Positions 11,072 to 62,827 of a stretch of DNA of 64,000 nt are shown here, piece after piece (positions within the stretch are counted from its first letter, which is position 1; each line of letters opens with the position of its first letter). The notes beneath the pieces were generated by a model. The model made no database searches, was not told the origin of the DNA, and saw only the letters and a list, made by a program, of their open reading frames with translations. Both the position numbers and the translations under genes were made by a program. Source of the DNA: an uncultured Ignavibacteria bacterium (lineage in GTDB: Bacteria > Bacteroidota > Ignavibacteria > SZUA-365). Location: assembly GCA_913061095.1 (NCBI GenBank), contig CAJXVM010000010.1, positions 1 to 64,000 on the forward strand, in the 5' to 3' direction.

Positions 11072-11146
11072 GGCGGCTGCGCAAATGTGGGGGATATGTT
11101 CATCAGGATGTGCGACGGGCAGATCGCACATTTTGTCAATCATGGA

Positions 11147-26987: not shown

Positions 26988-27031
26988 CCGCGGGCAGCGG
27001 ATTTGCATCCGATTCTGCCCGCGGATGCGTT
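26988..27031 (+). terminator. Long hairpin after the PrpD gene
   Basis: A 10-bp GC-rich stem (26988-26997 with 27015-27024) encloses a second 5-bp stem (CGGAT at 26998-27002 with ATCCG at 27007-27011) around a TTGC loop, and is followed by ATGCGTTTT. It is a likely terminator for the metabolic operon. It ends exactly where the first possible start codon of the following kinase begins. Confidence 0.7.
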
Positions 27032-30826: not shown

Positions 30827-31933
<1,107 letters not shown>

Positions 31934-41139: not shown

Positions 41140-41156
41140 CCCGACCGTTCTTTTCT

Positions 41157-41199
41157 GCGCCCCATGATTCCGCAAGTGGAGTCATGGGGCGCGCTTTTT
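41157..41199 (+). terminator. Rho-independent terminator after purB
   Basis: An 11-bp perfect stem (GCGCCCCATGA at 41157-41167 with TCATGGGGCGC at 41182-41192) is followed by GCTTTTT. It insulates purB from the che operon. Confidence 0.9.
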
Positions 41200-41345: not shown

Positions 41346-41849
41346 ATGAACCAAACCGCACCGAAACTGCTGCTGTACATCTCGGGAGACCGCATGTTCG
41401 GCGTTTCCCTTGAGCGTGTCGATGAGGTGCTGCCGGCGTTTGAGATGACCGGCGTTCCCGGACTGCAGCGCGGTGTTGTGGGGCTTGTCAGCCTGCGCGG
41501 GGACATTCTGCCTGTCATACGGGTGGATGCGTCCGCGACTGACAACACGGTGTCATTGAAGGCGCAGGATAGATTCATCGTTGTCAGAAGCAGCGACCGA
41601 ACGTTCGTTCTGCTGGCGGAACAGGTCTGCGAAATAATCGATGGAGATGGCGATGCGGAAGCGCGTCCCGGGTACCTGGCAGTCAATCAGAGTAGCATAG
41701 AGCGCGTCATCATGCACGAAGAAACCATGGTATTCGTACTCGATACCGACCGGCTGATCGATGACGCCTCATACCGGTCAGAGTCAGTGAGCACTTCCGT
41801 CACGGAGGTCCGCGAGGTACACCCGAACGCCGTTGCATCACCATATTGA
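41346..41849 (+). CDS. cheW: CheW-like coupling protein (WspB/D-like)
   Basis: The 167-residue CheW-domain protein starts at the ATG at 41346; upstream frames add non-CheW sequence. It matches the CheW fold through LLLYISGDRMFGVSLERVDEVLPAF, GVPGLQRGVVGLVSLRGDILPVI and FIVVRSSDRTFVLLAEQVCEII. CheW proteins bridge chemoreceptors to CheA. It is the first gene of a Wsp-like set, and its end overlaps the CheR frame. The 1080-1345 stretch before it has the purB terminators and a short AT-rich inverted repeat (CATTAA/TTAATG, 41202-41219) that could lie near the operon promoter. Confidence 0.9.
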   Translation: MNQTAPKLLLYISGDRMFGVSLERVDEVLPAFEMTGVPGLQRGVVGLVSLRGDILPVIRVDASATDNTVSLKAQDRFIVVRSSDRTFVLLAEQVCEIIDGDGDAEARPGYLAVNQSSIERVIMHEETMVFVLDTDRLIDDASYRSESVSTSVTEVREVHPNAVASPY

Positions 41850-43353
41850 AGCAGGAAGAACACTGAAAAAGGAAGAACAACATATCATTCTGGAAGCGGC
41901 GCTGAAGCGGGTCGAGCAGCTGCTCGGTCTCCGGTATCAGCAGCATCAGTGGAGTGACCTGCTGCGTTTGCTCAAACCGGCCGCGCGCGAACTCGGTTTC
42001 GATGATGTCACCGCATGTGTGGCATGGCTCGGAAGCGGCGACGTCAGTCCGATGCAGGTGCAGATTCTCGGGAAGCACCTGACGATTGGCGAGTCATATT
42101 TCTTCAGAGAAATCATCGCTTTTTCCCTTATGCGCCAACATGTACTCCCCGAAATCATCGAGGCGAAGGAAAAACAGGGCCACAGGGAGCTGCGTATATG
42201 GAGCGCCGGCTGCAGTTCCGGTGAAGAAGTGTATTCCGTCGCGATACTGGTGGATTCAATGCTCGACAAGCGAGATGGATGGAATATCTCCGTGCTCGGG
42301 ACCGATGTAAATCCGTCGGCAATTGAGCGCGCCCGGGAAGGCCGTTACCGGGAGTGGTCGTTCCGCGACATTCCCGCGGGGATCATCCAGGAGTACTTCC
42401 GCGGTACGGAGGATGGGAAACTCCAGATCAGCGATCGAATCCGCGTAATGACGGAGTTTCGGATGCTCAATCTCGCAGCTCCTCATGCGGAGTATCCATG
42501 CGGATTCGACATCATCCTCTGCCGCAACGTGCTCATGTATTTCACACGGCCGAAAATCCAGCACATCGTGCAGGGATTCAGGCGGTCCGTGCTGGAAAAC
42601 GGATGGCTCATCCCGAGCCTCACGGAAACGACGCTGATCAACAATCCCGGTTTCGAGGGTGTGCGCTTCGGGGACGCGACGCTGTTCAGAAAGCAGGGCA
42701 GGGTAAGCCACATCCTTTCGCTGAAAAAGAAGCCGGCAGAGAAGGTCGGGGAATCCGATCCGTATCCCGCGATGGGAGAGGAAACCGCATCCGCAATTCG
42801 GCAATGGAATGTTCTGCCGGAGAAGCGCCAGGTGAACATTTCCGACGGTACGGCGGCGGAAATATCGGCGCCGGGATTCCATTCGGCAACAAAACCGGAG
42901 ACCGGGATCACCAGCACGGCCACCAGGAAACGGAGACACGAGCGTGCGGAGAGCCGTCACGTGGAAGAACTCATCGACACGGCGCGCCGGTATGCGGATC
43001 AGGGGGAATTTCCGGAGGCGCTGGCCGCTGCACGGGGAGCAGTGGAAACAGAAAAAATGAACTCTCAGGCGCACATCATCTATGCGACCATCCTCCGTGA
43101 AACCGGAGAGACATCTCTTGCAATGCAGGAATTTCACCGCGCACTGTATCTGGATCACGGGAGCATCCCGGCGCATTTCGCCGTCGGCAGCATGTACCGT
43201 CATCTGGGTCGCAATGACAGGGCACGGAGGCACTTTCGCAATGCGCTCGAACTGCTTGAGAGCTGTGAAGACAAGAACGCGGTTGTCGACCCCGGCGGCC
43301 TGAGCGTCCGGCGCATGATCGAGATCATTACCACCATGCTCAGTGAATTATGA
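41833..43353 (+). CDS. cheR: CheR methyltransferase with TPR domain (WspC-like)
   Basis: The 506-residue protein has the CheR N-terminal helical domain, then the SAM-binding core (GESYFFREI, LRIWSAGCSSGEEVYSVAIL, LGTDVNPSAIERAREG, FDIILCRNVLMYF) that methylates glutamates of the receptor, and after a linker (about residues 290-370) tetratricopeptide repeats at the C-terminus (ARRYADQGEFPEALAAARGA, AHIIYATILRETG, FAVGSMYRHLGRNDRARRHF). CheR-TPR fusion is typical of Wsp/Frz-like systems. The start is uncertain: TTG 41833 is assumed, overlapping cheW by 17 bases, while a CTG at 41863 has AGGA six bases before it. The stop overlaps the next CheW as ATGA. Confidence 0.92.
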   Translation: MHHHIEAGRTLKKEEQHIILEAALKRVEQLLGLRYQQHQWSDLLRLLKPAARELGFDDVTACVAWLGSGDVSPMQVQILGKHLTIGESYFFREIIAFSLMRQHVLPEIIEAKEKQGHRELRIWSAGCSSGEEVYSVAILVDSMLDKRDGWNISVLGTDVNPSAIERAREGRYREWSFRDIPAGIIQEYFRGTEDGKLQISDRIRVMTEFRMLNLAAPHAEYPCGFDIILCRNVLMYFTRPKIQHIVQGFRRSVLENGWLIPSLTETTLINNPGFEGVRFGDATLFRKQGRVSHILSLKKKPAEKVGESDPYPAMGEETASAIRQWNVLPEKRQVNISDGTAAEISAPGFHSATKPETGITSTATRKRRHERAESRHVEELIDTARRYADQGEFPEALAAARGAVETEKMNSQAHIIYATILRETGETSLAMQEFHRALYLDHGSIPAHFAVGSMYRHLGRNDRARRHFRNALELLESCEDKNAVVDPGGLSVRRMIEIITTMLSEL

Positions 43354-43973
43354 AGCAGGATCACAGACAGATTGCGGATGAAACTGATACGAGCTGGATG
43401 GAAATCCATTCAATGCTGCAGGAAGTAACGGAGTCCATGAATGCTGATGCAGCGGAAGGTCAGACTGCTGACAGGGATATCCTCCGCCGGCGGGCAAAGG
43501 AGTATGCACAGCGAAACGGGAACGGACATGACCGTAAACGCAATCTCAAGGATGTTCTTCTGTTCTCTCTCGGCGAGAGGAAATATGCCCTTCCGTGCAG
43601 TCATATCGAAGAAGTGATTCCGATGCAGAGCCTCGTCGCACTGCCGAACAGCAGTCATGCCGTTCTCGGCATTTCGAATAATCGCGGAGTGCTCTTCGCC
43701 GTCATCGATCTCAAACGCCTGCTCAGCATTCCCGCATCCGAGCTGACCACGATGCACCGCGTCGTCATGCTGCGTCACGACCATTTCCGGATCGGCATTC
43801 TGGTCGATGCGGTTCACGGGATGGATACCATTGATGCAGCGGAACTCAAAGAATTACCGCATGAGATTGGTGAGCGGACACGTCGATTTCTTCAGGGCCT
43901 TTCGCCCGACGGCATTCTCCTTGTCTCGGCGGACGACGTCATCAGCGAAATGGCAGCCACTGCCGAACAGTAA
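43350..43973 (+). CDS. cheW: Second CheW-like coupling protein (WspD-like)
   Basis: The 207-residue protein has a roughly 65-residue charged, helical N-terminal extension followed by a CheW domain (DVLLFSLGERKYALPCSHIEEVIPM, LPNSSHAVLGISNNRGVLFAVIDLKRLL, RIGILVDAVHGMD). Having two CheW proteins flanking CheR is exactly the Wsp arrangement (WspB, WspC, WspD). It probably couples receptor and kinase in the same array. It is translationally coupled to cheR by ATGA overlap. Confidence 0.9.
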   Translation: MKQDHRQIADETDTSWMEIHSMLQEVTESMNADAAEGQTADRDILRRRAKEYAQRNGNGHDRKRNLKDVLLFSLGERKYALPCSHIEEVIPMQSLVALPNSSHAVLGISNNRGVLFAVIDLKRLLSIPASELTTMHRVVMLRHDHFRIGILVDAVHGMDTIDAAELKELPHEIGERTRRFLQGLSPDGILLVSADDVISEMAATAEQ

Positions 43974-44009
43974 CGGAACAGAACGCAATTCACCCATACA
44001 GGTGCGATC

Positions 44010-45806
44010 ATGAAATGGTTCGTCAATCTCAAAACCAAATATAAGCTGCTTATCGGCTTCGGCATCGTCATTGCATTTCTGCTGGCGCTGATCGGTGTTG
44101 AAAACATACAGTCCTCGCGCTCACTCGTCGAGTATGAAACCATCATGAATACGCAGATCCCGCTGAATCAGGCCGGGAGCGACCTCATGAATGACCTGAT
44201 GCGGGAGCGCGTGCTGTTTGCCCGGTGTCTTTCATTCGCGGATTCACCGGCTCCGGGTGTCAGCTACGATGAGCTGAAGGAACAATTCCTTGATCAGCAG
44301 CGAACAGTGCAGGCGTCGCTGAAACGAACGCAGAATCTGTTTACGCTCAGCACTTCACAGATTGATGCAGAGTCGGTCGCGGCGAGTATGGACAATGCGC
44401 AGAAGCAGTTTCTGAAAATCTCCCGCATCCATGATTCATATCAGGATCTGACTACTCCGGCAATGGCGGCGATCGAGTCCGGAGATCTCGTCTCCCTGGA
44501 CAGGATTCGCAGCGATCTCGAAGAAAACAGCACGGTATTTTATGGTTCAATCGATCTGTTTGCCTACGAACTGAAGAATCTCTTCGAGGCGTCGAAAAAG
44601 CAGCTGGAAAACATTGAGAATACTGCAATGGTTGCGCGGCTGATCATTTTCAGCATCGGGATTGCTCTCGTTGTCTTTTTCGCCACGATGATCTCACGTC
44701 TCATTTCCCGTCCTCTGAGTGAGGCGACGGAAATCGCAGATCGACTCGGCCAGGGAGATACGACCGTTCCGATTCGCACTGACAGGCATGACGAGGTCGG
44801 AGAACTGCTCAAGACACTTGAGAAGCTCCGCGCCAACAGCGACCACGAAGCGCAGGTCGCCGCACGGATCGCGGACGGAGACCTCACCGTCGAAATCACC
44901 CCGCTGTCTGAGAAGGATGTGCTCGGAAAGGCGCTCTCGACAATGGTGGAGCGGCTGCGCACGCAGATCCGAGAGATGATCGAGGGCATCAACGTCCTCG
45001 CGTCCGCCACGGCCGAGCTCTCCTCGACGATGGTGCAGATCGCTGCCGGGGCGCGGGAGACGGCGTCCGCTGTCAACGAAACCGCTGCCACGCTGCTTGA
45101 AGTCAAACAGGCATCCCAGCTGTCGAATCACAAGGCGAAGACCATCTCCGATGATACCCAGCAGACACTGCGCGTCTCACGCGACGGTGTGGACTCCATA
45201 GAAAAAAGCATTTCCAGCATGGAGAACATCCGCGAGCAGATGCGCGGGATCGCGGAAAGCATCATCAAGCTGAGCGAACAGAGCCAGGCGATCGGGGATA
45301 TCGTCACATCCGTAAATGATCTCGCGGAGCAGTCCAATATTCTCGCCGTCAATGCGGCGATCGAGGCGGCAAAGGCGGGTGAGTACGGCAAGGGATTCAC
45401 CGTCGTCGCGAAGGAAATCCGAAACCACTCGGAGCAGTCAAAGCAGGCAACCTCGAAAGTGCGTTCGATACTCATAGATACGCAGAAGGCGACGGCATCG
45501 GCCGTCATGGTCGCCGAACGCGGGACAAAACTGGCGGAGGACGGAGCGCAACTCTCGACCGTTTCCGGAAAAGCGATTCAGACCGTGATGAGCGGGATCA
45601 ACGAGACGGCGGAATCCATGCTGCAGATCTCGGCATCGGCAAAGGAACAGGTTGCCGGACTCGATCAGGTGAATACGGCGATCCAGCATATCAAGTCGGC
45701 CAGTGAACAAAATGTGGAGTCCATCCATCAGGTGGAACTCACAGCGCAGAACCTCAAGGAACTCGGCACGCGCCTGCAGCGCTTTGTCGAACGCTATAAT
45801 CTTTAA
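44010..45806 (+). CDS. Methyl-accepting chemotaxis protein
   Basis: The 598-residue receptor has a first membrane helix (about residues 12-30), a periplasmic four-helix-bundle domain (about 31-208), a second helix (210-230), HAMP (about 231-283) and a cytoplasmic signalling domain whose hairpin tip is marked by [34 protein letters not shown]. There is no C-terminal CheR-tethering pentapeptide (the chain ends RFVERYNL), in keeping with a CheR that carries its own TPR. The 4HB-type sensor and the context suggest WspA-like sensing of a mechanical or envelope cue rather than an amino acid. GGTGCGATC precedes the ATG. Confidence 0.93.
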
Positions 45807-45827
45807 TCCCCGGTCTCATTGACAGCC

Positions 45828-48377
45828 ATGATGGAAGAAGAATTTCTTCAGAAACTTCGCGAAGCATTTGCGATCGAGGCGGACGAGCATCTCCGCACGA
45901 TCAGCAAGGGAATCGCCGATATCGAGCAGGCGGACGGGGGCGGTGCGCAGTCGGTGCTCGATCTGGTGTTCCGCGAGGCGCACAGCCTGAAAGGAGCCGC
46001 GCGCGCGGTCAACCGGAGTGATGTCGAGGCGCTCTGCCAGGCCATGGAGGGATTCTTCGCTGTTTGGAAAAAGGATGCCAGGTCAATTCGCGAAACGCAT
46101 TTCGTCCTGCTCGACGAGGCGATGACGCTGCTTGAAGCGTTGCTTTCCTCCGATGAGGAGCGCCCGATTTCCGATGAGACGCTCACCTCGCTGGTGGATC
46201 GCATCAAGAGTGAAAGCAGTGTCGCGGCCGACGGTGCATCTCAGGGGACGCTGACAACGGCTTCAGCTTCGCTTCCCGGCGATCTGATCGACATGCCGCT
46301 GCCGGATCTTCACATTGAGAACGACGACGTGCCGTCCTCCGGGGAGGGTGTGGAGCAATCAAAACAGAGTGATCCCGCAGAATCAACGGGATCAGAAGTC
46401 CCACCAGTGGATGCGGCGGAGAACTCCGAATCCGTGCAGTTCGATGAGCGTCCCGCGGAAACTGAACCGGCAAAATCGGCGATGGATGTGGAAGCAGAGC
46501 ACGATGATGATGCGCCGCGGCCGAAAACGGATCGGTCTGAGGAGAAGATCTCCGGAACATCTGCGTCGAAACCCGGTGGCAACGGCACTGCATCTGTCCG
46601 CGCCTCAGGCGAGACCGTTCGCGTGCAGCTTTCGGAACTCGATGCCCTATATCGACAGGCCGAGGAACTCAGCTCGGTCAAGTTCATGATTGGCCGCGCG
46701 GCGTCTGATATGAAACTCATCGTCGAACAGTGCAGGGAATGGCTGCGCGAATATCAGAAGCACAGGCAGGAATCACTTGAACAATGGGACAGTATCAAGG
46801 GAAAAGTAAAGGATGCCGCCTATTACACTGAGCAGTACGAGAATCTGCTGCATTTCATCAAATGGACCGCGCGGCAGATGGAAGGCATTGAGTCGGCCGT
46901 CGGCAAGGGCATCGAGGACGGCCGTGGAACGATGTACATCATGGATTCCATGTCCGAAGCCCTGATCGACCGCGCAAAGCAGCTGCTGCTCATGCCCTTC
47001 GCCCTCATCACCGATACATTGCATCCCATGGTGCGCAAGCTGGCACGGGATCTTGGAAAAAAGGTGCACTTCACGGTCACCGGTGAGGATATCCGCATCG
47101 ACAAGCGCATTCTCGAAGAACTGAAGGATCCCCTCATCCATCTGCTGCGCAACAGTATCGATCACGGTATCGAAGAGGAGGATCGACGCGTGCGGGCGGG
47201 AAAATCCGGAGCGGGAAGTCTGCGCCTGGCGATCAGCATCGGAACGGACAATCGAATACAGGTCAGTATCAGCGATGACGGCGGCGGTATCGATGTTGGC
47301 CGCGTCCGTAAAAAGGCGGTCCAGGAAGGCCTGCTGAAAGCCGAGGAAGCGGATTCCCTCGATACACGGCACATCCTCGATCTGATTTTCAAATCCGGTC
47401 TGTCGACCAGTAATATCATCACCGATATCAGCGGCCGGGGAGTCGGTCTGAGTGTCGTCCGAGAGAATATCCATACCCTCGGCGGGGATATCGCAGTTCG
47501 TACCGAAACGGGTGCGGGCACGGAATTTCTGCTTTCCCTTCCGGTGTCCCTTTCCAATGCGCGCGGGGTACTTGTGCGCAGTGCCGGAAGAATGTATATC
47601 GTACCGCTGCAGCATGTCGAGCGCGGCATGATGGTTCATCGGGAAGACTTTTCCTCGCTGGATGGCCGAACGGTTTTGGACTATGACGACAGAAGCGTGA
47701 CGGTGCATCGTCTTGAAAATATTCTGCAGATGCCGTCGGGCAGCAAGGCGGAGGAGGGAACCCAGGCGATCCTCTTGATGCTGAAATACGGAAGAGACAT
47801 GCTCGGGCTGGAAGTCGATGAAATCCTCTGGGAGCAGGATGTGGTGGTGAAGCCGCTCCCCGCTCCGGTTTCACGCGTCCGGACCATTGCCGGGGCGAGT
47901 CTTCTCGGAACAGGCGAACTCGTTCCCGTCCTGCACATCCAGGATGTGTTCGAGCGCGCGCGCCAGACGCAGGAAAGGGACACGCCCGATCCGTCGTTCG
48001 CCGATGACAGAAAACGCAGAAATCTTCTTGTGGTGGATGACTCCATTACTTCCCGTGTTCTGCTGCATGATATTCTTCTTTCCACCGGGTACAGCGTCCG
48101 CACCGCAGTCGACGGGATCGATGCGCTGACCTGTCTTCGCGAGGAAGAGTTCCATCTCGTCGTCTCAGATGTTGAAATGCCCCGTATGAATGGATTCGAA
48201 TTGACGGAAAGCATTCGGCGCGACGATAAACTCTCCGAACTGCCCGTTGTGCTGGTCACAGGTCTCGAATCGAAGGAGGACCGTGAACGCGGTTTTGATG
48301 TTGGTGCAAACGCGTATATCATCAAGAGCAGTTTCGATCAGAGCAACCTCCTCGAGGTCATTTCGAGGTTGCTCTGA
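45828..48377 (+). CDS. cheA: CheA-REC hybrid kinase (WspE-like)
   Basis: The 849-residue kinase has an N-terminal Hpt domain with phospho-acceptor His52 (REAHSLKGAARAV), a long acidic/low-complexity linker (about residues 130-270) in place of a P2 CheY-binding domain, a P3 dimerisation region, an HATPase domain (LIHLLRNSIDHGIE, SDDGGGIDV, ISGRGVGLSVV), a CheW-like P5 domain and a C-terminal receiver (VVDDSITSR, Asp781 in VVSDVEMPRMNGFE). CheA-REC is typical of Wsp-type clusters, and the fused receiver may act as phosphate sink. The ATG at 45828 lacks a clear ribosome-binding site. The stop TGA overlaps the CheB ATG by one base. Confidence 0.93.
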   Translation: MMEEEFLQKLREAFAIEADEHLRTISKGIADIEQADGGGAQSVLDLVFREAHSLKGAARAVNRSDVEALCQAMEGFFAVWKKDARSIRETHFVLLDEAMTLLEALLSSDEERPISDETLTSLVDRIKSESSVAADGASQGTLTTASASLPGDLIDMPLPDLHIENDDVPSSGEGVEQSKQSDPAESTGSEVPPVDAAENSESVQFDERPAETEPAKSAMDVEAEHDDDAPRPKTDRSEEKISGTSASKPGGNGTASVRASGETVRVQLSELDALYRQAEELSSVKFMIGRAASDMKLIVEQCREWLREYQKHRQESLEQWDSIKGKVKDAAYYTEQYENLLHFIKWTARQMEGIESAVGKGIEDGRGTMYIMDSMSEALIDRAKQLLLMPFALITDTLHPMVRKLARDLGKKVHFTVTGEDIRIDKRILEELKDPLIHLLRNSIDHGIEEEDRRVRAGKSGAGSLRLAISIGTDNRIQVSISDDGGGIDVGRVRKKAVQEGLLKAEEADSLDTRHILDLIFKSGLSTSNIITDISGRGVGLSVVRENIHTLGGDIAVRTETGAGTEFLLSLPVSLSNARGVLVRSAGRMYIVPLQHVERGMMVHREDFSSLDGRTVLDYDDRSVTVHRLENILQMPSGSKAEEGTQAILLMLKYGRDMLGLEVDEILWEQDVVVKPLPAPVSRVRTIAGASLLGTGELVPVLHIQDVFERARQTQERDTPDPSFADDRKRRNLLVVDDSITSRVLLHDILLSTGYSVRTAVDGIDALTCLREEEFHLVVSDVEMPRMNGFELTESIRRDDKLSELPVVLVTGLESKEDRERGFDVGANAYIIKSSFDQSNLLEVISRLL

Positions 48378-49459
48378 TGGTACGTGTCTTTGTCATAGCG
48401 CAATCTGCCGCCCGTGCCCAGAGAATTCGCAGCGTTCTGTCGCTCGATCATGAAATCGACACGGTGCGACTGAGTTTCGATGATGACGAGTTCATGTCGC
48501 AGCTCTCCACTTCCAATGCACAGATCGTTGCGCTCGATGCCGCCTGCGGACCCGCTGACGTGCATCGGATGACACAGGAAATCATGCACAAGCATCCTGT
48601 GCCGGTTGTCATCCTCGCGGAGAGAAGTGCTGATCAGGCCGGTACACGTTCGATACAGGCACTGGAAGACGGTGCGCTGACCGTGCTCGAGCTCCCACCC
48701 GAGAGTGATAACGTGGGAGCATCGTCCACAGGTGCGGGCGAGCTGTGCAGGAATCTGCGTCTTATGTCGGAAGTAAAAGTGGTGCGAAGATGGGACAGCA
48801 CGCGCTTCGAATCGTTCCAGCGCATCATGCATCCCGCGCAGGAGAATGCGGAGAGCCGTCCTCCCGTTCATATTGTCGCAATCGGCGCATCTGCAGGCGG
48901 CACACAGGCGCTCCAGCAGGTGTTCGGCGGGATCCATGAGACATTTCCCGTTCCCATTCTCGTTGTTCAGCATATTGCCAAGGGATATATTACCGGATTG
49001 ACACGCTGGCTCGACGAACAGACCCCGCTGCGTGTCCGCATTGCGGAGAACGGCGCGATTCCGGAGGCCGGGACGGTGTATCTCGCACCGGATGACGCAC
49101 ACTTGACTGTCGATTCCGACCGTCGTATTCTGTTATTGCACGATGCTCCCGTAAATGGATTCCGACCATCCATAGCCCGACTTTTTCAAAGCGTTGCAGA
49201 TGAGTATCAGTCCAACGCCGCTGCTGTTCTGCTCTCCGGCATGGGGAACGACGGTGCGGCGGAAATGCGCACACTGTTCGATCATGGTGCGTGTACGATT
49301 GCGCAGGACAAACGAACGTCGCTGATCCACGGCATTCCGGGTGAGGCGATCAAACTGCGGGCGGCGCGTTTCATCCTTCCACTGCCCGAAATCGGATCTG
49401 CACTCGAGACCGTCGCTGGTGGAGTACGGAACGCGCATCGGATATCCGGCGACGCATAA
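48377..49459 (+). CDS. cheB: CheB methylesterase with degenerate receiver (WspF-like)
   Basis: The 360-residue protein has a C-terminal methylesterase domain with the intact triad Ser172 (IGASAGGTQAL), His199 (VVQHIAKGY) and Asp292 (LSGMGNDGAAEM), which removes methyl groups from the receptor. The N-terminal domain has the receiver fold length, but the acidic pair at the end of strand 1 is replaced (VFVIAQSAA), the usual phospho-acceptor region reads ALDAACGPAD with only Asp54 remaining, and the invariant Lys of strand 5 is missing. It should therefore not be phosphorylated normally. It is coupled to cheA by a one-base overlap. Confidence 0.93.
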   Translation: MVRVFVIAQSAARAQRIRSVLSLDHEIDTVRLSFDDDEFMSQLSTSNAQIVALDAACGPADVHRMTQEIMHKHPVPVVILAERSADQAGTRSIQALEDGALTVLELPPESDNVGASSTGAGELCRNLRLMSEVKVVRRWDSTRFESFQRIMHPAQENAESRPPVHIVAIGASAGGTQALQQVFGGIHETFPVPILVVQHIAKGYITGLTRWLDEQTPLRVRIAENGAIPEAGTVYLAPDDAHLTVDSDRRILLLHDAPVNGFRPSIARLFQSVADEYQSNAAAVLLSGMGNDGAAEMRTLFDHGACTIAQDKRTSLIHGIPGEAIKLRAARFILPLPEIGSALETVAGGVRNAHRISGDA

Positions 49460-49477
49460 GGATCATTCTGAGAAACG

Positions 49478-50788
49478 ATGATGGCAACCGGCATAGAAAT
49501 ACTCGTTGTTGAAGACAGTCCCACGCAGGCGCTGAAGCTGAAGTACATCCTCGAGAAGCAGGAGTACACCGTCCGCCTCGCAGTCAACGGCAGGGAAGGC
49601 CTTGAGGCAGTCAGGCAGCGGCGTCCCACACTGGTTATTTCGGATGTCCTCATGCCAGAAATGGACGGCTACGAATTCTGCACGGCGATCAAGACTGACG
49701 AGGAGTTGAAGGATCTTCCCGTCATCCTGCTGACGACACTGTCAGACCCGCAGGATATTATTCGCGGCCTTGAAAGCGGAGCCGACAACTTCCTCAACAA
49801 GCCCTACAGCGAGGAGGCGCTTCTTTCGCGCATCAAGTACATCCTCATCAATCTCGATGTGCGGTCACGCATGCGCACGGGGATGGGGATAGAGATTTAT
49901 TTCGCGAACAAGAAGCATTACCTGACCTCGGAGCGGATTCAGATCATCGACCTGCTCCTTTCCACCTACGAGAATGCCGTCGAGAAGAATGCGGAGCTCG
50001 AGAAGGTCAACAAGCAGCTTCGCAGCATGCAGGAAGAGCTTGAGAAAAACAATGAACAACTGAAACTGCTCAACGAGCAGAAAAATATGCTGCTCGGGAT
50101 GGCGGCGCACGATCTCCGAAATCCGCTCTACCTGATCGAGGGATACAGTGAATTCCTGGGCAAGGACAATGCGGACAATCTCACCGAAGAGCAGCACACG
50201 ATCATTTCAGCCATTCAGTCCAGCAGCAGCTTCATGGTGCAGATGATCAATGATCTCCTCGACGTGCAGAAGATCGAGACAGGGAAGCTGGATCTGAACA
50301 TGCAGCAGGCGGATTTCAATGCCGTGCTGGATACCGTACTCGAGCGCGTCGCGTTCACCGCGGACAAAAAAGGCATCGATCTTTCCGTGCAGCGCGTTGA
50401 GACGCTGCCGGCTTTTATCTTCGATCCCGCCCGTATCGAGCAGGTCATCTCGAATCTCATCGACAATGCCATCAAATTCTCGTTTAAAGGCTCGGTCATC
50501 GAGATATCCTATCAGTACACTGAACAGGACCTCGTATTTTCCGTGCGGGACCATGGTCCGGGCATCCCCGAGAAGGAAATCGGTTCGCTGTTTCGTCCGT
50601 TCAACACGACGAGTGTCAAGCCGACGGGGAACGAGCGCAGCACCGGACTGGGACTCGCGATTGCGCAGAACATCGTTGTCAGACACCGGGGACGTATATG
50701 GGTTGAGAGTGAAGAGGGCAAGGGTTCCACCTTCAGCTTCTCGCTGCCCGTCACGCTGACCGAAACAGCGCCCGTGCGAGCCCGATAA
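49478..50788 (+). CDS. Receiver-histidine kinase, likely output of the chemosensory system
   Basis: The 436-residue soluble protein has an N-terminal receiver (VVEDSPTQALKL, Asp56 in LVISDVLMPEMDGYE, Lys in FLNKPYS), a helical coiled linker (about residues 150-200, rich in NKQLRSMQEELEKNNEQLKLLNEQ), HisKA with His211 (MAAHDLRNPLYLI) and HATPase (NLIDNAIKFSFKG, DHGPGIP, STGLGLAIA). It takes the place occupied by WspR (REC-GGDEF) in Wsp operons. The CheA-REC hybrid probably phosphorylates its receiver to control its own kinase activity. Partner regulator unknown; the OmpR-type regulator directly downstream is a candidate. Confidence 0.92.
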   Translation: MMATGIEILVVEDSPTQALKLKYILEKQEYTVRLAVNGREGLEAVRQRRPTLVISDVLMPEMDGYEFCTAIKTDEELKDLPVILLTTLSDPQDIIRGLESGADNFLNKPYSEEALLSRIKYILINLDVRSRMRTGMGIEIYFANKKHYLTSERIQIIDLLLSTYENAVEKNAELEKVNKQLRSMQEELEKNNEQLKLLNEQKNMLLGMAAHDLRNPLYLIEGYSEFLGKDNADNLTEEQHTIISAIQSSSSFMVQMINDLLDVQKIETGKLDLNMQQADFNAVLDTVLERVAFTADKKGIDLSVQRVETLPAFIFDPARIEQVISNLIDNAIKFSFKGSVIEISYQYTEQDLVFSVRDHGPGIPEKEIGSLFRPFNTTSVKPTGNERSTGLGLAIAQNIVVRHRGRIWVESEEGKGSTFSFSLPVTLTETAPVRAR

Positions 50789-50868: not shown

Positions 50869-51546
50869 ATGCGTTTACTCATCGTCGAAGATGAACTCAA
50901 AGTTTCCCAGTTCCTTCAGAAAGGCTTCGAGGAGGAACTGTTTTCCGTTGATACCGCCGAAGACGGCGACAAGGGCCTGTTCATGGCCCTGACCGAGAGC
51001 TATGATGTCATCATTCTCGATCTCATGCTCCCGAAAAAGAACGGGGTGGAAGTCCTCAAGGAATTGAGGAAGGAAAAGAATACGCCGGTACTCGTGCTGA
51101 CCGCGAAGGGACAGCTCGAGAACAAGGTCGAGGTGCTCAACATCGGCGCCGACGATTATCTTACCAAGCCTTTCGCCCTCGCTGAGTGCATCGCGCGCGT
51201 CCGTTCGCTGCTGCGCCGCGCGCAGATGGACAAACCGACAAACGTGCTCACCGCCGATACGCTTGAACTCGATCAGATTCAGCACGTCGTCAGGCGTGAT
51301 GATCAGGTCATCGATCTCACCGTCAAGGAGTTCAAGCTGCTCGAGTATCTGTTGCGCAACAAGAACACCGTGCTGACCCGTTCCGCCATCATCGAGCATA
51401 TCTGGGAAATCACCTTTGATACGGGCACGAATGTGCTTGATGTATACATGACGCGGCTGCGGAAGAAGGTGGATGACGATTATGAAGTGAAACTCATCCA
51501 CACCATTCGCGGCGTCGGCTACATCCTCAAGGACGATGAGGAATGA
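50869..51546 (+). CDS. OmpR-family response regulator
   Basis: The 225-residue protein is a receiver (IVEDELKVSQF, phospho-acceptor Asp51 in VIILDLMLPKKNG, Lys in YLTKPFALAECIAR) joined to an OmpR/PhoB winged-helix DNA-binding domain (LTVKEFKLLEYLLRNKNTVLTRSAIIEHIWE, VDVYM-like LDVYMTRLRKKV, TIRGVGYILK). It is a transcription factor that most likely dimerises on tandem promoter sites when phosphorylated. Its stop overlaps the downstream kinase as ATGA. Targets are unknown; the pilus-like genes that follow the kinase are candidates. Confidence 0.94.
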   Translation: MRLLIVEDELKVSQFLQKGFEEELFSVDTAEDGDKGLFMALTESYDVIILDLMLPKKNGVEVLKELRKEKNTPVLVLTAKGQLENKVEVLNIGADDYLTKPFALAECIARVRSLLRRAQMDKPTNVLTADTLELDQIQHVVRRDDQVIDLTVKEFKLLEYLLRNKNTVLTRSAIIEHIWEITFDTGTNVLDVYMTRLRKKVDDDYEVKLIHTIRGVGYILKDDEE

Positions 51547-52544
51547 AACTGGGTCCGCGCCAAAAAGCGGTGCTGCTGTACGGCTCCACCATCTTTGGTG
51601 CGTTCGCGTTCATTCTGCTGCTGGTCATCACCGTCTTCACCCGCCAGTTCCCGACCTTCAATTTCACCGGTATCGGTATTCTGTTCATTCCCGCCGGCCT
51701 GTTCTTCGCCTTCACCATCGGATGGATTATCTCGCAGGAACTGCATCCGCGCAAGAACCAGGATTCGCTCGATATCGACCTGGAGGAAGCCGGGGTCGAT
51801 GACCTTGATTTCCAGCAGAAAATGCACAGCGTGCACAGCACGATTGAAAACATGCAGACGGCGTACGAGCAGATCCAGAACTTCTCCGCCAATGCATCGC
51901 ACGAGCTCCGCACGCCGCTGACCATCATGCGGGGAGAAATCGAACTGGCGCTTCGCAATCCGAAGAAACCGGAGCAATACCAGCAGCTGCTTGGAAGCCT
52001 GCTCGAAGAGATCATGCGCCTCTCACGCATTCTTGACGATCTGCTGCTGATCGCCAAGACGGAGATCGGGGAGCGTCCGATTGAGATGCAAACGCTTGAT
52101 CTCGGGGAAATCGTGGAGGAGATCGCCGACGAGGCGGAAATGTTCGCCGCGCAGGCGGATATAACGTTCGAACTCGGGGAGACCTGCGAAGCATTCATCG
52201 AAGGGGAACCGCTGCGCATCCGGCGTGTTCTGCTCAATCTTATTGACAACGCCGTCAAGTACAACAGCCGCAACGGTAGCGTGCGTCTCTCGATGGAAAA
52301 GGACGATGAAATGGTCTCCGTCTCCGTGACCGACACGGGTATCGGCATTCCGGAAGAATCCATTCCGCGCCTGTTCGAACGCTTTTACCGCGTCGACGAC
52401 AGCGCATCGACAGGCCGGAAAGGCACCGGTTTGGGACTGTACCTCGTGCAATGGATCGTCAAGAATCACGGGGGAACGATCGCGGTGCAGAGCGAAAAGG
52501 GGAAGGGAAGCACGTTCACCGTGCGCCTGCCAATGAAGGTATAA
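51543..52544 (+). CDS. Sensor histidine kinase partner of the OmpR regulator
   Basis: The 333-residue kinase has two N-terminal membrane helices (about residues 10-32 and 42-63) with a very short (about nine-residue) external loop, so it probably senses membrane state or a partner protein rather than an external ligand. There is no HAMP domain. HisKA carries His120 (SANASHELRTPLTIM) and HATPase shows NLIDNAVKYNSRNG, DTGIGIP and FYRVDDSASTGRKGTGLGLYLV. It is coupled to the regulator by a four-base overlap. Confidence 0.93.
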   Translation: MKLGPRQKAVLLYGSTIFGAFAFILLLVITVFTRQFPTFNFTGIGILFIPAGLFFAFTIGWIISQELHPRKNQDSLDIDLEEAGVDDLDFQQKMHSVHSTIENMQTAYEQIQNFSANASHELRTPLTIMRGEIELALRNPKKPEQYQQLLGSLLEEIMRLSRILDDLLLIAKTEIGERPIEMQTLDLGEIVEEIADEAEMFAAQADITFELGETCEAFIEGEPLRIRRVLLNLIDNAVKYNSRNGSVRLSMEKDDEMVSVSVTDTGIGIPEESIPRLFERFYRVDDSASTGRKGTGLGLYLVQWIVKNHGGTIAVQSEKGKGSTFTVRLPMKV

Positions 52545-52751: not shown

Positions 52752-53168
52752 ATGGGTACGCAACAGCTTCTTCTCATCGTTCTCGGTGTGATCATTGTCG
52801 GTATCGCGGTCGTGGTCGGTATCAATATCTTCGGTACAAACGCGGAGCAGGCGAACAAGGACGCCATCACGCAGGATTGTCTCCGCATCGCAGCGGCAGC
52901 CCAGGGCTTCTACCGCAAGCCGACGATGCTCGGTGGTGGAAACAACTCTTTCGCGACCATCACCATCGAGGATTGCGGCATGGCCGCCGATGACGGAACC
53001 CCGCTGACCGGTTCGAACGTGAACGCAGCGTATACTGTCGAAGGAACGGCCACGGCCTTTACCGTTACCGGGGCTTCGGCTACGGAGACAGGGAAATCCA
53101 TTGCCGTCACTGTCGACATGACTCAGCCTGAAGCCGACCGCATCACCGTCGATGATACTGGCTGGTAA
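52752..53168 (+). CDS. Pilin-like protein 1 with non-canonical N-terminus
   Basis: The 138-residue protein begins MGTQQLLLIVLGVIIVGIAV, one long hydrophobic helix as in type IV pilins, but with only MG as a possible leader and with no Glu at mature position 5. After the helix (GINIFGTNAEQANKDAI) comes a small globular domain with two cysteines, Cys43 and Cys75, conserved in its paralogue and likely disulfide-linked, and an ending DDTGW. CAGGAG precedes the ATG. It is followed by a strong terminator, so it can be expressed alone at high level, as expected of a major subunit. Confidence 0.8.
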   Translation: MGTQQLLLIVLGVIIVGIAVVVGINIFGTNAEQANKDAITQDCLRIAAAAQGFYRKPTMLGGGNNSFATITIEDCGMAADDGTPLTGSNVNAAYTVEGTATAFTVTGASATETGKSIAVTVDMTQPEADRITVDDTGW

Positions 53169-53212
53169 GATTTGCCCCATGCAGTGCACTTGGCGCTGCC
53201 TCAAAATTTCGG

Positions 53213-53243
53213 ACGCCGCTGATGAAATCAGCGGCGTTTTTTT
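53213..53243 (+). terminator. Rho-independent terminator after pilin-like gene 1
   Basis: An 11-bp stem (ACGCCGCTGAT at 53213-53223 with ATCAGCGGCGT at 53227-53237) with loop GAA runs directly into a T-tract (53237-53243). It separates the first pilin-like gene from its paralogue. The remaining bases to 53378 show no further feature. Confidence 0.92.
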
Positions 53244-53378
53244 CTTTCAGTAATTTCATGTGGAATTCAGAGAAATGAAAGCTCCATCGATTAGATTACC
53301 CAGCGCATGAGAATACGGAAGCAGGTCCATTGTTGGTTAATCCCTGTGTGACATCACAGGTGGCAGAGGAGTATCCCC

Positions 53379-53795
53379 GTGGGCAACCAGCAGATTTTAC
53401 TCATCATTCTCGGTGTCATCGTTGTCGGCATTGCTGTGACGATCGCTCTATTTGTATTTGGAACGAACTCCGACCAAGCCAGCAAGGATGCCTTGACGCA
53501 TGGCTGCCTGAACATCGTCTCATCGGCACAGGCATATTTCCGTAAGCCCCGCATGCTCGGAGGCGGTGGAAACGCATTCGACGGCATCGAGATCGTCGAT
53601 TGTGGTATGACTGACACCGGTGACGGAACAGGAAGCGACCTCAATGGCACCTATCGCATCATAACCGCCGCCGGCAATGATCTGGTTGTCGAAGGCATCT
53701 CCGCGACAAACAGCAGCCAGATGGTCACAGTTGCGGTGGATATGAATGCCATCAGTAGCACACAACCATACATGATTACCTACAGTGGCTGGTAA
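53379..53795 (+). CDS. Pilin-like protein 2, paralogue of pilin-like 1
   Basis: The 138-residue protein is the same length as pilin-like 1 and clearly paralogous: N-terminus MGNQQILLIILGVIVVGIAV, cysteines at 43 and 75, shared FRKPRMLGGGGNAF segment and GW ending. The start is a GTG at 53379 with AGAGGAG ending eight bases before it; weak start use would lower output relative to copy 1. It too lacks the Glu5 of type IV pilins. The following 53796-54019 contains no gene and no clear terminator. Confidence 0.8.
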   Translation: MGNQQILLIILGVIVVGIAVTIALFVFGTNSDQASKDALTHGCLNIVSSAQAYFRKPRMLGGGGNAFDGIEIVDCGMTDTGDGTGSDLNGTYRIITAAGNDLVVEGISATNSSQMVTVAVDMNAISSTQPYMITYSGW

Positions 53796-54019
53796 TCGAC
53801 ATCCTCCAAAACGCCTGCTCCCCGTCCCCGCCTGCCGCTTCTTCCTCCCTGAGCTTCACATCCCGCCTGATACAACCACAAAGAACCTTTCTCCTTTGTA
53901 ATACGCAGTTAAGTCTCCGTTAAGAATCGGCATCTATCTTAGACATGAGCCAAGGAGAAGGGTGGCTGTATTTCTCCCCCGCGCTCGCACAGGAAGTAGG
54001 ACTATTCGGAAGGTGTATC

Positions 54020-55465
54020 ATGGCGGATTTTCGATTTCAGGGTGTTGTCCCCTCCGGGAAGATCATCACCGGGACCGTCAGTGCGAATAACGCGGCGGAA
54101 GCGAAGAAGAAAATCCAGGAACTCGCGAAGGGACGCTCGTTCCGGCTCGACAAACTGGAAAAGCGCACGCTGTTCATCTACAAGGCGCAGAAGGGGGAGA
54201 AGGTCATCGAGGGCGAGCAGAAGGCCTATTCCAAGGCCGAAGTGGAGAACGCCCTTTCATCGATGGGATACAAGGTCGTCTTTGTCCGCAAGAAGCTTGC
54301 CGTGCCCGTGGGGAAGCCGCCGATCGCGGACGTCATCACCTTCGTCCGTCTCAGTGCTGATCTCCTACGCGAGAAACTTCCGTTCAATGAAGTGTTGAAC
54401 CTGCTCTCAAACGATATTGACAACAAAGTGCTGCGTGAAACGCTCAAGGATATCAATACCGATCTGCGCAAGGGAGCCGAAAGTGAGCGTGTGTTCCTGA
54501 AGTACGAGCACGTTCTCGGCAAGTTCACTGCAAAGATGCTGGGACTTGCCTCGAAGAGCGGTGCCATGGCAGAGATGTACGACTCGACTGCCAAGTTTCT
54601 CGAACGCCGGCTCGAGTTCAAAAAGAGTATGAAAAGCGCCATGCTCATGCCCATGATCACGCTGGTGCTGCTTATCCTTGCGACAATTTTTTATGTCGCG
54701 TACATCTTCCCCGAAACTGCCCGCATGTTTATCAAGTACGGCATTGAACTTCCGCCAATGACGGAAGCGACGCTTGAGTTTTCAGACTGGATCGTCGCGA
54801 ATATTCTGTTCTTCATCATCGGGGGTGTCGGATTGGCTGCCGGTGTTTTCATCCTCTTTACGAATCAGCAGAGCCGGATTTGGGTGGATAAAGTATCCTT
54901 TCGCATCCCCGTCATGGGAGCGCTCATTCACAAAACCGCCATCGAGGTTTTCTGCCGCGTGTTCTACTCGCTGTACAGCGGTTCCGGCGAGAACATCGAC
55001 GTGATCAAGACCGCGGCCGAGGCCACGGGCAACAAGTATTTCGAATCTCAGATCAAGGACATTACGATTCCGATGATGCTCAAGCACGGAAAAGGATTGC
55101 ACGAGTCTTTCGAGGCCTCTGAGGTATTCACGAAAACCGCGTTGTCGCGCTTCCATGCCGGTGCGGAAACCGGTATGGTGCGCGAGACGTCGCTGCAGCT
55201 CGCAAACTATTATGAGCGCGAAACGACGTACAAACTGAAATCCGTCGTCGATTTCATGCAGCTCTGGGTCGCACTGATCATCATGATCGTCATGACGGCC
55301 ATCACCATCGTGTCGTCGGAAACGGCAGTCATCAAGCCGAAATCGGCACCGGGACTGGGCGAAATCATCCCGCAGCTTCTGTTTGTCTCATCACCATTCA
55401 TTCATCAGATCAAAAACGTTATTCATGGATGCCGCAGCTTCCTTGCTCGAAAGAAAGATCGATAA
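54020..55465 (+). CDS. pilC: PilC/GspF-family inner-membrane assembly protein
   Basis: The 481-residue protein starts at the ATG at 54020 with GGAAGG upstream, beginning MADFRFQGVVPSGKIITGTV; an upstream in-frame ATG at 53945 is less likely. Two T2SF domains (about residues 115-235 and 315-440) each carry the helical pattern seen in FRLSADLLREKLPFNEVLNLL and EVFCRVFYSLYSGSGENIDVIKTA. Three to four membrane helices are visible (MPMITLVLLILATIFYVAYIF, IVANILFFIIGGVGLAAGVFI, LWVALIIMIVMTAITIV). It is the platform protein that links ATPase motion to pilin movement. Its end overlaps the ATPase gene by 41 bases. Confidence 0.9.
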   Translation: MADFRFQGVVPSGKIITGTVSANNAAEAKKKIQELAKGRSFRLDKLEKRTLFIYKAQKGEKVIEGEQKAYSKAEVENALSSMGYKVVFVRKKLAVPVGKPPIADVITFVRLSADLLREKLPFNEVLNLLSNDIDNKVLRETLKDINTDLRKGAESERVFLKYEHVLGKFTAKMLGLASKSGAMAEMYDSTAKFLERRLEFKKSMKSAMLMPMITLVLLILATIFYVAYIFPETARMFIKYGIELPPMTEATLEFSDWIVANILFFIIGGVGLAAGVFILFTNQQSRIWVDKVSFRIPVMGALIHKTAIEVFCRVFYSLYSGSGENIDVIKTAAEATGNKYFESQIKDITIPMMLKHGKGLHESFEASEVFTKTALSRFHAGAETGMVRETSLQLANYYERETTYKLKSVVDFMQLWVALIIMIVMTAITIVSSETAVIKPKSAPGLGEIIPQLLFVSSPFIHQIKNVIHGCRSFLARKKDR

Positions 55466-57218
55466 GGTCGGCGTAGCCCTTCTGCACAAGGGGATTGTCG
55501 ACCGGGAAACGATCTCGAAGGCGATCTCCACGAAGGAGAAGGAAGCCGGCCGGCGTCACCGCAGTCTCGCGGAAATCCTCGTAGACGAATACAGTCTCGA
55601 CCACCACACGGTGTTCTCCGAGGTCGCACGGATCTACGCCTTCAAGACGATGAAAATCGACGAGGCGATGACCGAGCGGCGCGTCAACCTCATCCGGCAG
55701 ATGGTCGAGTCGCTTACGGCGGAACAGCGCAGCGTGCTATTCAAGGCGCGCACGCTTCCCCTGCAGTTCGATGCGCGGACGCCGGACAAGCTCATACTCG
55801 TTTCGGCCATCCCGATACACCGGGAGATCCCCCGGATCGCCAACTTCTTCCGTGCGCTCAAGTACGAAGTCTACTACGCGGAACAGAAGCAACTCAATCC
55901 GCATATCGACAACCTTCTCCAGGCCGACAACGAATTCCTCGAGAGTATCAAGGAGATGGAAGGCGAGCTCGAGGAAGGAAGTCTCGATTCGGGGATCGAC
56001 GAAGCGGAACTCGACCAGGAAATCAACAAGTCGATGCTCGTCAACCTCTTTGAGGGCTGCCTCGTGGAGGCGGTGCGTCAGGGTGTCAGTGACGTGCATA
56101 TTTTTCCGACGACACGGACCGTAACGGAATTCCATTTCCGAGTCGACGGAAAGCTGTCGATGTGGAACAAGGTGGAAGGCACGCGTCCCGAAGCCGTGCT
56201 CGCCGTGGTGAAAGACCGCAGCATGAACATTGACCGCTTCGAGCGCGACGCGGCACAGGACGGGTTCATCCAGCGTACGATCGACAATACCGTGATCCGC
56301 TTTCGTGTGTCAGTGCTTCCGATCGCCGGCAGTGAATATCAGCAGAAATTCGAAAGCATCGTCATCCGCATCCTTGACAGCCGCAAGGTGATCAAGGATA
56401 TCGCGAAAATCGGTTTTCAGAAAAAAGCCTACGAGTGGTTCCAGGACTCCATCACAAAACCGCAGGGCATGGTCATTCTCACCGGTCCGACGGGAAGCGG
56501 AAAAAGCACGACACTCGTCGCGGCACTCTATTCGGTGATTACACCGCAGGTGAACGTCCTCACCGTGGAGGATCCGGTCGAGTATGTCATCGACGGCGCG
56601 CGGCAGATCAAGATTTCACACAAGGTGAATTTTGAACAGGCCATCAGAGCGATTCTGCGTCATGATCCCGACATCGTCATGGTCGGTGAGATGCGCGACA
56701 AGACCACGGCCGACATCGCCATCAAGCTTGCGAACACCGGTCACCTGACGTTTTCCACGCTCCATACGAACGATGCACCGAGCGCGGTGACGCGCCTGTT
56801 CAAAATGGGAATCGAACCCTTCCTCATCGCATACGCGATCAATCTGGTCGTTGCCCAGCGTCTGCTCCGCAGGCTGTGCAATGCGTGCAAGCGGCCGGTG
56901 AAGGATTTGAATATGGACCAGCTGCATGCCGTGGGTTTCACCGATGAAGAAATCGAAGAAACGACCTTTTACGAGCCGGTCGGCTGCTCGAAGTGCGTGA
57001 AAGGATTCAAAGGGCGTGCGGCGATCCACGAGGCGCTGTACTTCTCGAAAGCCGTGCGCAAGGCCATTTTTGAATCCGGGGACGACATCGACGAGGATGA
57101 GATCCGTCAGATCGCAATCAGTGAGGGGATGCTGACGCTGCGCGCCTCGGCACGGGAGCGTGTCAAGGAAGGTGTGAGCTGCGTTTCGGAAGTCATTGCA
57201 GCGACGATGTCGGATTGA
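55425..57218 (+). CDS. pilB: PilB/GspE-family assembly ATPase
   Basis: The 597-residue ATPase starts at the ATG at 55425, inside the end of pilC, and begins with an MshEN-type N-terminal domain (RKIDKVGVALLHKGIVDRETI through LAEILVDEYSLDHH). The core shows Walker A GPTGSGKST (354-362), the Asp box TVEDPVEY, Walker B DIVMVGEMRDKTTAD, the His box STLHTNDAPSA and a zinc-binding four-cysteine site (Cys485, 488, 521, 524). All catalytic motifs are intact, so it should power pilus extension or pseudopilus assembly. Confidence 0.95.
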   Translation: MDAAASLLERKIDKVGVALLHKGIVDRETISKAISTKEKEAGRRHRSLAEILVDEYSLDHHTVFSEVARIYAFKTMKIDEAMTERRVNLIRQMVESLTAEQRSVLFKARTLPLQFDARTPDKLILVSAIPIHREIPRIANFFRALKYEVYYAEQKQLNPHIDNLLQADNEFLESIKEMEGELEEGSLDSGIDEAELDQEINKSMLVNLFEGCLVEAVRQGVSDVHIFPTTRTVTEFHFRVDGKLSMWNKVEGTRPEAVLAVVKDRSMNIDRFERDAAQDGFIQRTIDNTVIRFRVSVLPIAGSEYQQKFESIVIRILDSRKVIKDIAKIGFQKKAYEWFQDSITKPQGMVILTGPTGSGKSTTLVAALYSVITPQVNVLTVEDPVEYVIDGARQIKISHKVNFEQAIRAILRHDPDIVMVGEMRDKTTADIAIKLANTGHLTFSTLHTNDAPSAVTRLFKMGIEPFLIAYAINLVVAQRLLRRLCNACKRPVKDLNMDQLHAVGFTDEEIEETTFYEPVGCSKCVKGFKGRAAIHEALYFSKAVRKAIFESGDDIDEDEIRQIAISEGMLTLRASARERVKEGVSCVSEVIAATMSD

Positions 57219-57279
57219 CAGCGGACGTGACTGGGCGTGATCATATCGAAATGAACTCCATTATCTGCAGAGGCAGGAC

Positions 57280-57801
57280 ATGAATACAGGACAGATGGCA
57301 CTGACAATCGGGGCGTTCATGCTGCTGGGAATGGTGATGCTGAATTTTCGCGGACTCAATTTCCAGAATGAAGATGTTCTGGATAACAACGAGTATACGC
57401 AGAAAGCCGTCGCCATCGGCCGGTCCCTCATGGATGAGATACAGGGCAAGCCGTTTGATGCCGTCTACAACTGGAAAGGCATCGTCAAGCTGGAAGATCT
57501 GACAGCCTGCGGACCGGGTTCGGCGGAGTCCTATCATGGAAGCACGCCATTCAACGACATCGATGATTTCCATCGTCAGGTATTCACCAGTCCGGCACCG
57601 GGGAGCACACCGGGCGATGAAACCCCTCAGTGCCTTCATGACACATGGGGCTACACCGTGCGTTGTGCCGTCACATACGTCCGTGATGATGACCCCACGC
57701 AGGCCGTATGGTACCGCACATGGTCAAAGCTCGTGATCCTGGAAATCACAAATCAATTTTCCGAAGACACTTTACGCATGCAATATCTCGCAACACATTA
57801 A
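57280..57801 (+). CDS. Minor-pilin-like protein A
   Basis: The 173-residue protein begins MNTGQMALTIGAFMLLGMVML, a single hydrophobic N-terminal helix like that of minor pilins, then a soluble domain with three cysteines (ACGPGSAE, PQCLHDTW, VRCAVTYV). If the Gly at position 4 were the cleavage site, the leader would be four residues and the mature start Gln rather than the usual Phe/Met, with no Glu5. AGAGGCAGGA precedes the ATG. It is the first of three small pilin-like genes between the two ATPase genes. Confidence 0.7.
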   Translation: MNTGQMALTIGAFMLLGMVMLNFRGLNFQNEDVLDNNEYTQKAVAIGRSLMDEIQGKPFDAVYNWKGIVKLEDLTACGPGSAESYHGSTPFNDIDDFHRQVFTSPAPGSTPGDETPQCLHDTWGYTVRCAVTYVRDDDPTQAVWYRTWSKLVILEITNQFSEDTLRMQYLATH

Positions 57802-57813
57802 AGAGAGAGCGCC

Positions 57814-58452
57814 ATGAGCAGCTATCTTGACATCGTCGGTTCCGTCATCATCGCCGGGATGATCATCCTGAATTTCGCCGTGTTCATGGGCGAACGACAG
57901 GAGTCGCAGATCGAATCCACGAACAAGGTGACGGCACAGACAGAAATGAGCGACATCACGCAGACACTGCGGCATGACCTCCGCAAGCTCGGCTACGGCT
58001 GTGATTCGCTTCCGATCATCAATGCATCGCCCCGTCAGCTTGTATTCCGTGCAGATCTGGATAACGACGGAAAGATCGACACTGTCGGATACGCCTTTGA
58101 CGATGTTGTTGACGGAGCCACACTCGCATCAGTGACGACAAAAACCACAACACTGCAGTCCGAAGTGACAACGAGTGAATATTCCACCGAAACACTGAAA
58201 GTTTCGACTCTCGGCTATTCGCTGCACCGTGTCGTCAACGGTCAGGTATTCGAAGGTGGTGATTCAGACATGACAGGATTTCATTTCAGGTATTACACAA
58301 CGAATTCCTACGGCACGCTGATCGAAACGACAACGGTCGGAGACATCCGGGCAATCGGTGTCGTGCTGCGTCTGCGCAGCAAAATGAAGCAGGATGGCGA
58401 ATACAAGTATTCGCTGAACGAATTCACCGTTTCGCCGAAGAATCTCATTTAA
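57814..58452 (+). CDS. Minor-pilin-like protein B (PilW-like layout)
   Basis: The 212-residue protein begins MSSYLDIVGSVIIAGMIILNF, a hydrophobic helix. The following region (MSDITQTLRHDLRKLGYG) and the C-terminal beta-rich half (PRQLVFRADLDNDGKIDTVGYAF, GFHFRYYTTNSYG, IGVVLRLRSKM) closely follow the PilW/GspJ minor-pseudopilin pattern of an early amphipathic helix and a beta-sheet domain. It lacks a typical leader peptide and Glu5. GAGAGAG precedes the ATG. It probably forms part of the tip or priming complex. Confidence 0.75.
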   Translation: MSSYLDIVGSVIIAGMIILNFAVFMGERQESQIESTNKVTAQTEMSDITQTLRHDLRKLGYGCDSLPIINASPRQLVFRADLDNDGKIDTVGYAFDDVVDGATLASVTTKTTTLQSEVTTSEYSTETLKVSTLGYSLHRVVNGQVFEGGDSDMTGFHFRYYTTNSYGTLIETTTVGDIRAIGVVLRLRSKMKQDGEYKYSLNEFTVSPKNLI

Positions 58453-58467
58453 TCCCGGAGGACGATC

Positions 58468-59496: not shown

Positions 59497-59543
59497 GAAC
59501 TGGGGCGACGGCTTAGGATACGGCTGGCGTCAGTTGAGAAATA

Positions 59544-59710
59544 TGAAAAACGTGCCGAAAATATTTTTACGATTTTTCCGAACTGTGCTTCCCCTCGTGG
59601 AATTAAATGATTATATTTCAACGAGTCCTGATCAAAACATCAAGCACAGGTTGAGAAAACGGCACGGAACTGCAAATGAATCTGTGAATATTGGAAGAAC
59701 AGCATCATGA
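59544..59710 (+). CDS. Possible small basic ORF before the PilT-like gene
   Basis: The 55-codon frame encodes a basic protein (start MKNVPKIFLRFFRTVLPLVE). Its TGA (59708-59710) overlaps the next gene's ATG (59707-59709) as ATGA, suggesting coupling. The stretch is more AT-rich than its neighbours and no close family is known. A GAGA element lies upstream, but the ribosome-binding site is weak. It may be only intergenic sequence. The remaining bases 59497-59543 show nothing. Confidence 0.3.
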
Positions 59711-61026: not shown

Positions 61027-61048
61027 TCTGCGCCTGCCGAGTCTGCCT

Positions 61049-62815: not shown

Positions 62816-62827
62816 AGGAGAGATATT

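Follow-up and report, generated by a model that had tools for sequence, protein, structure and literature searches.

In chemosensory clusters whose CheR is fused to TPRs, about 40% of the response regulators contain a HisKA-HATPase kinase, the largest output class, and phosphorylation of the receiver (REC) domain has been suggested to modulate that kinase (PMC3447774). Wsp systems have been called exclusive to the beta- and gammaproteobacteria, and in the H-system, confined to Burkholderia, WspR is replaced by the receiver-kinase WspH (PMC8552884). Genetic suppressors link WspH to Bcen2424_1436, an OmpR-type regulator with its own kinase (PMC4324302). The receiver-kinase CheS3 of R. centenum is phosphorylated on REC1 by CheA3, with a change in its kinase state, and the CheS3 kinase does not transfer phosphate to its own receiver (PMC3868531). 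Here we analyze a window of 64,000 nucleotides (the whole stretch of DNA under study, from an uncultured Ignavibacteria bacterium, assembly GCA_913061095.1, contig CAJXVM010000010.1) that carries, at 41346-50788, an operon of seven che genes ending in a REC-linker-HisKA-HATPase protein (hereafter REC-HK). Placed by its domains and gene order, the operon is a kinase-output, WspH-like chemosensory cluster of the alternative cellular function (ACF) class, and we hold with reasonable confidence, judging from sequence, that it encodes an ACF-class array in which CheA would act on the REC-kinase. This assignment is based on the domains, the intact active sites, the presence of a single system in the genome, the conservation of REC-HK, the CheS3 and WspH precedents, and a helix seen in the structural model of REC-HK.

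All seven genes lie on the plus strand and are tightly packed or overlapping, as judged from Pfam matches and the list of open reading frames (ORFs). They encode a CheW-like coupling protein in the WspB position (41346-41849; Pfam CheW 1.6e-18), a WspC-like CheR methyltransferase with C-terminal TPRs (41833-43353; Pfam CheR 1.9e-45 and TPR_2), a second CheW-like protein with an N-terminal extension in the WspD position (43350-43973; Pfam CheW 2.7e-26), a membrane chemoreceptor (MCP) in the WspA position with HAMP and MCP signalling domains (44010-45806; Pfam HAMP and MCPsignal), a WspE-like CheA-REC hybrid kinase with the Pfam order Hpt-HATPase-CheW-REC (45828-48377), a CheB methylesterase with a degenerate N-terminal pseudo-receiver (48377-49459; Pfam CheB_methylest 3.2e-55), and REC-HK itself (49478-50788), which is WspH-like by its Pfam domain layout. 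An earlier interpretation made from the DNA letters (the sequence-only reading) had given the same gene order, domains and coordinates, and all of these hold. According to hydropathy, the MCP has two hydrophobic segments, 9-35 and 204-233, that flank a periplasmic region of about 170 residues, and REC-HK has no transmembrane segment and is soluble. A scan for promoters and terminators returned about what is expected from shuffled sequence, and the sole operon boundary is a strong hairpin after purB, at 41156-41193.

The residues needed for signaling are intact where the proposed pathway would use them. In the window and in nine aligned family members, CheA retains its phosphorylatable His, N box, G boxes and the Asp and Lys of its REC domain (the Hpt region is uncovered in two of the aligned family members), and REC-HK retains Asp56, Lys108, His211 and its ATP-binding motifs. 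Within the operon, receivers are intact only in CheA (its C-terminal REC) and in REC-HK, and no stand-alone CheY ORF was found in or directly after the cluster, in line with the absence of CheY noted earlier. The REC-kinase is the probable output, as it is the sole cluster protein other than CheA with an intact receiver. A two-step relay is not the most fitting description of it: in the precedent of PMC3868531 the receiver regulates the kinase, and since CheS3 works without transfer from the kinase to its own receiver, the arrangement is better put as a kinase controlling a kinase. A CheR fused to TPRs and a multidomain response regulator in place of a single-domain CheY are both ACF features.

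The operon is Wsp-like but not a strict Wsp system. It shares with the Pseudomonas Wsp system (WspABCDEFR) the two CheWs, CheR-TPR, membrane receptor, CheA-REC and CheB, and differs in that the receptor follows the second CheW, there is no WspR or other GGDEF output, and the CheB receiver is degenerate. The B. cenocepacia system (wspHRR) is closer in its output, with a Wsp protein set in which WspR is swapped for a receiver-histidine kinase without GGDEF, and in having an OmpR-type regulator with its own kinase, which is tied genetically to the pathway there and lies next to the operon here. In B. cenocepacia, however, wspH forms a unit of its own 5' of the operon and the regulator is encoded at a different locus, whereas in the window the che genes end with REC-HK and a regulator-kinase pair comes directly after them; the relatives of the window are Bacteroidota/Ignavibacteria, and the CheB receiver is degenerate. 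The Che3 system of R. centenum (CheA3-CheS3-CheY3) likewise has a CheA with a C-terminal REC and a REC-kinase with an N-terminal receiver, but its cluster includes CheY3, the target of CheS3, and the window cluster is without CheY. From the CheR-TPR/ACF clusters of PMC3447774, which have the same REC-HisKA-HATPase output, the operon differs in nothing essential.

We searched the host assembly, which spans 4.61 Mb and is 100% complete, by domain. It encodes one CheA, one MCP, one CheR and three CheW domains, all inside the che cluster. Because MCP and CheR are single and no CheW domain lies elsewhere, the cluster is the cell's only chemosensory system. The other family genomes that carry the operon have exactly three CheW domains each. 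The CheA dimerisation model PF02895 has zero matches in the host genome and is unusable for counting CheA, so systems were counted through CheW, MCP and CheR; WspE is likewise without a PF02895 annotation (PMC8552884). CheD was not found in the host genome, as the sequence-only reading had it for this DNA. A second chemosensory system or a flagellar motor was considered and rejected, since genome-wide domain searches returned neither; there was no FliMN_C domain and no flagellar motor component was detected. A WspR hidden elsewhere, which would have displaced the REC-kinase as output, was rejected as well: the genome has no REC-GGDEF protein, only two GGDEF proteins, both of which lack a receiver and deviate from the GGDEF signature.

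The order DegQ-PurB-CheW-CheR-CheW-MCP-CheA-CheB-REC-HK-regulator-kinase-pilin is kept in nine family genomes as far as their contigs reach (in G008 the first CheW is visible only at a looser cut-off), which rules out a chance arrangement, and REC-HK directly follows CheB in every family member with the operon. Within the family, MCP and REC-HK are 71-84% and 74-84% identical to their counterparts in the window, and the CheWs, CheR, CheA and CheB 26-63%. The MCP and REC-HK thus appear as the constrained input and output ends, an argument for the REC-kinase being integral to the system. Among the matches listed in the genome, CheA itself aside, the receiver of REC-HK is the closest to that of CheA. 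The first CheW (41346-41849) is unusually divergent in the family, at 26-37% identity, and its neighbor genes are better conserved.

Between receiver and kinase, REC-HK has a conserved linker (about residues 125-190; 49850-50050, plus strand) that has no Pfam match and was delimited with alignments A1 and A2 and a domain survey. The linker is conserved across relatives with quite different output domains. The structural model of REC-HK (mean pLDDT 80, low around 132-139) predicts the receiver, a beta-hairpin at 138-149 and one continuous helix at 153-230 that bears His211. To see how widespread this arrangement is, we used the receiver-plus-linker module (alignment A1) as query against genomes in which each species is represented once and obtained 80 loci, with counts that are biased toward the query. 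At loci with CheB, the module is the next che-related gene in 63/63 and carries a kinase in 45/63; in complete clusters, the module after CheB carries a kinase in 21/27. Across all module proteins a kinase is present on 61 of 88 by this measure, and the rest carry GGDEF, GAF-GGDEF-EAL or a short Cys-rich end, or in a few cases are cut off. The loci range from Bacteroidota to archaea and fall in Ignavibacteria, KSB1, Desulfobacterota, Nitrospirae, Planctomycetota, Chloroflexi, Beta- and Gammaproteobacteria and Methanoperedens, as the metagenome bins are named in their record titles. Such counts reject the notion of the REC-kinase as a rare exception. The Wsp-like layout with a kinase in the WspR position had been put forward as unexpected; the layout is as described, but kinase output after CheB is a common one, and it has already been published (PMC3447774, PMC8552884). 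A further REC-HisKA-HATPase protein is encoded in the window at 30827-31933, and the gene directly before it (27025-30810) encodes a Reg_prop/Y_Y_Y sensor kinase of 1261 residues.

The match to Wsp holds for the domain set, but the earlier comparison overlooked that the CheB receiver is abnormal. The N-terminus of CheB (48377-48720) gives no Pfam REC match, and in 10/10 family members other residues stand in place of the acidic pair and the Lys is lost, with the acceptor Asp sometimes Glu. The catalytic motifs GASAGG, VQH and GMGNDG are retained in the family. Outside it, almost all of some 50 related CheBs keep the receiver pocket, with one relative (L041) partly altered, and this clade-specific pseudo-receiver is the one unusual feature of the operon. 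As the receiver chemistry is lost, phosphorylated CheA (CheA~P) probably no longer feeds back on CheB, and demethylation is probably not accelerated by it. We found nothing directly usable in the literature on a CheB without a working receiver.

We propose that the membrane receptor, with its methylation set by CheR-TPR and CheB, would control CheA autophosphorylation through the two CheWs. The Hpt histidine of CheA would then pass phosphate to its own C-terminal REC, a likely sink, and to Asp56 of REC-HK. The phosphorylated receiver of REC-HK could shift the linker and the long helix into HisKA, turning the second kinase up or down, and REC-HK would in turn act on a response regulator in a different protein, for which the OmpR-type regulator encoded next to the operon, by a pilus locus, is the most plausible candidate. 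The genes with their order and domains, the intact and lost residues, the conservation and the absence of other chemosensory systems and of REC-GGDEF are observed; the phosphotransfer, the sign of control, the target and a role in surface or pilus behavior we infer.

The candidate target is encoded 80 bases 3' of the che operon, on the plus strand, as an OmpR-type response regulator (50869-51546; Pfam Response_reg and Trans_reg_C) whose gene overlaps that of its paired membrane histidine kinase (51543-52544, plus strand; Pfam, with a hydrophobic N-terminus). Whether this regulator is the target of REC-HK we regard as an evenly balanced question. It adjoins the che operon in all operon-bearing family genomes where the contig reaches, with 88-95% identity, and in G008 it still does so though PilC and PilB have moved about 180 kb away. 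The WspH pathway of B. cenocepacia, too, depends on a regulator of the OmpR type that is accompanied by a kinase of its own (PMC4324302). Several points weigh on the other side. In G005 and G007 the regulator-kinase pair is kept with pilin-PilC-PilB and the che operon is absent (the block is L171 in G005 and split over two contigs, L172-L173, in G007), and neither genome has a CheA match beyond receiver-level score; since the pair persists without the operon, adjacency is weak evidence for a link. The regulator has diverged in step with PilB and gives no sign of added co-evolution with che. Three positions downstream of the phosphorylated His, which we take to be often tied to partner choice, read Y, G, Y in REC-HK and T, G, E in the regulator's own kinase, a weak indication, and other regulators in the genome may be the true target. 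These same observations speak for an array with the same step from CheA to the REC-kinase but with a target regulator encoded elsewhere, the adjacent pair being devoted to the pilus locus and its own sensor; we give this somewhat less than an even chance, as the consistent adjacency and the B. cenocepacia pathway run against it. In G005, two CheW-like domains also occur in isolation elsewhere, and there is no full match to CheA.

Other readings change the chemistry or the class of the system. His211 and Asp56 are both intact and could exchange phosphate in a true phosphorelay, or the receiver could act as a sink or source, but an N-terminal receiver on the predicted continuous helix fits allosteric control, and we consider a relay unlikely. 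The neighboring pilus locus, with its PilB and PilT-like ATPases, would suit control of type IV pilus motility by a Pil-Chp-like system of the type IV pilus (Tfp) class; CheR-TPR, the single Hpt detected by Pfam in CheA, the multidomain REC output and the Wsp-like order are ACF features, however, and the cluster has no PilG- or PilH-like single receivers, which makes this reading very unlikely. Least probable is a strict Wsp system with c-di-GMP output through a diguanylate cyclase elsewhere: the genome does have two GGDEF-domain proteins, but their lack of a receiver and their departure from the signature argue against it, and c-di-GMP was unchanged by wsp mutations in B. cenocepacia (PMC8552884). 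We favor the kinase-output ACF array. One point to be set against it is that the CheB receiver, though degenerate, may still have a binding or regulatory function that needs no phosphate.

Beyond the regulator-kinase pair lies a type IV pilus-like locus (52752-63736, plus strand; Pfam, NCBIfam and synteny) with pilin-like, PilC, PilB, PilT-like ATPase, PilM-like and PilO-like proteins. It is conserved in the family and is outside the che operon proper. The pilin-like protein at 52752-53168, the only pilin-like one scanned, has no Pfam family match. Elsewhere in the window, 8306-11143 encodes a large BNR/sortilin-repeat protein that ends in Por_Secre_tail, a C-terminal sorting domain that signals type IX secretion and is typical of Bacteroidota.

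A more far-reaching possibility, which we put forward tentatively and think doubtful, is that a Wsp-like array has been rewired in this Bacteroidota family, with CheB freed from phospho-feedback and the CheA-driven REC-HK and the membrane kinase jointly controlling the OmpR-type regulator of the pilus locus. If true, this would be a two-input switch in one gene block. More broadly, kinase-output, WspH-like arrays are widespread, far beyond Burkholderia, and with this operon the last step of such arrays could be tested within one compact block of genes. The clade, in which CheB throughout lacks a working receiver, is a natural case for asking how adaptation runs without phospho-feedback.
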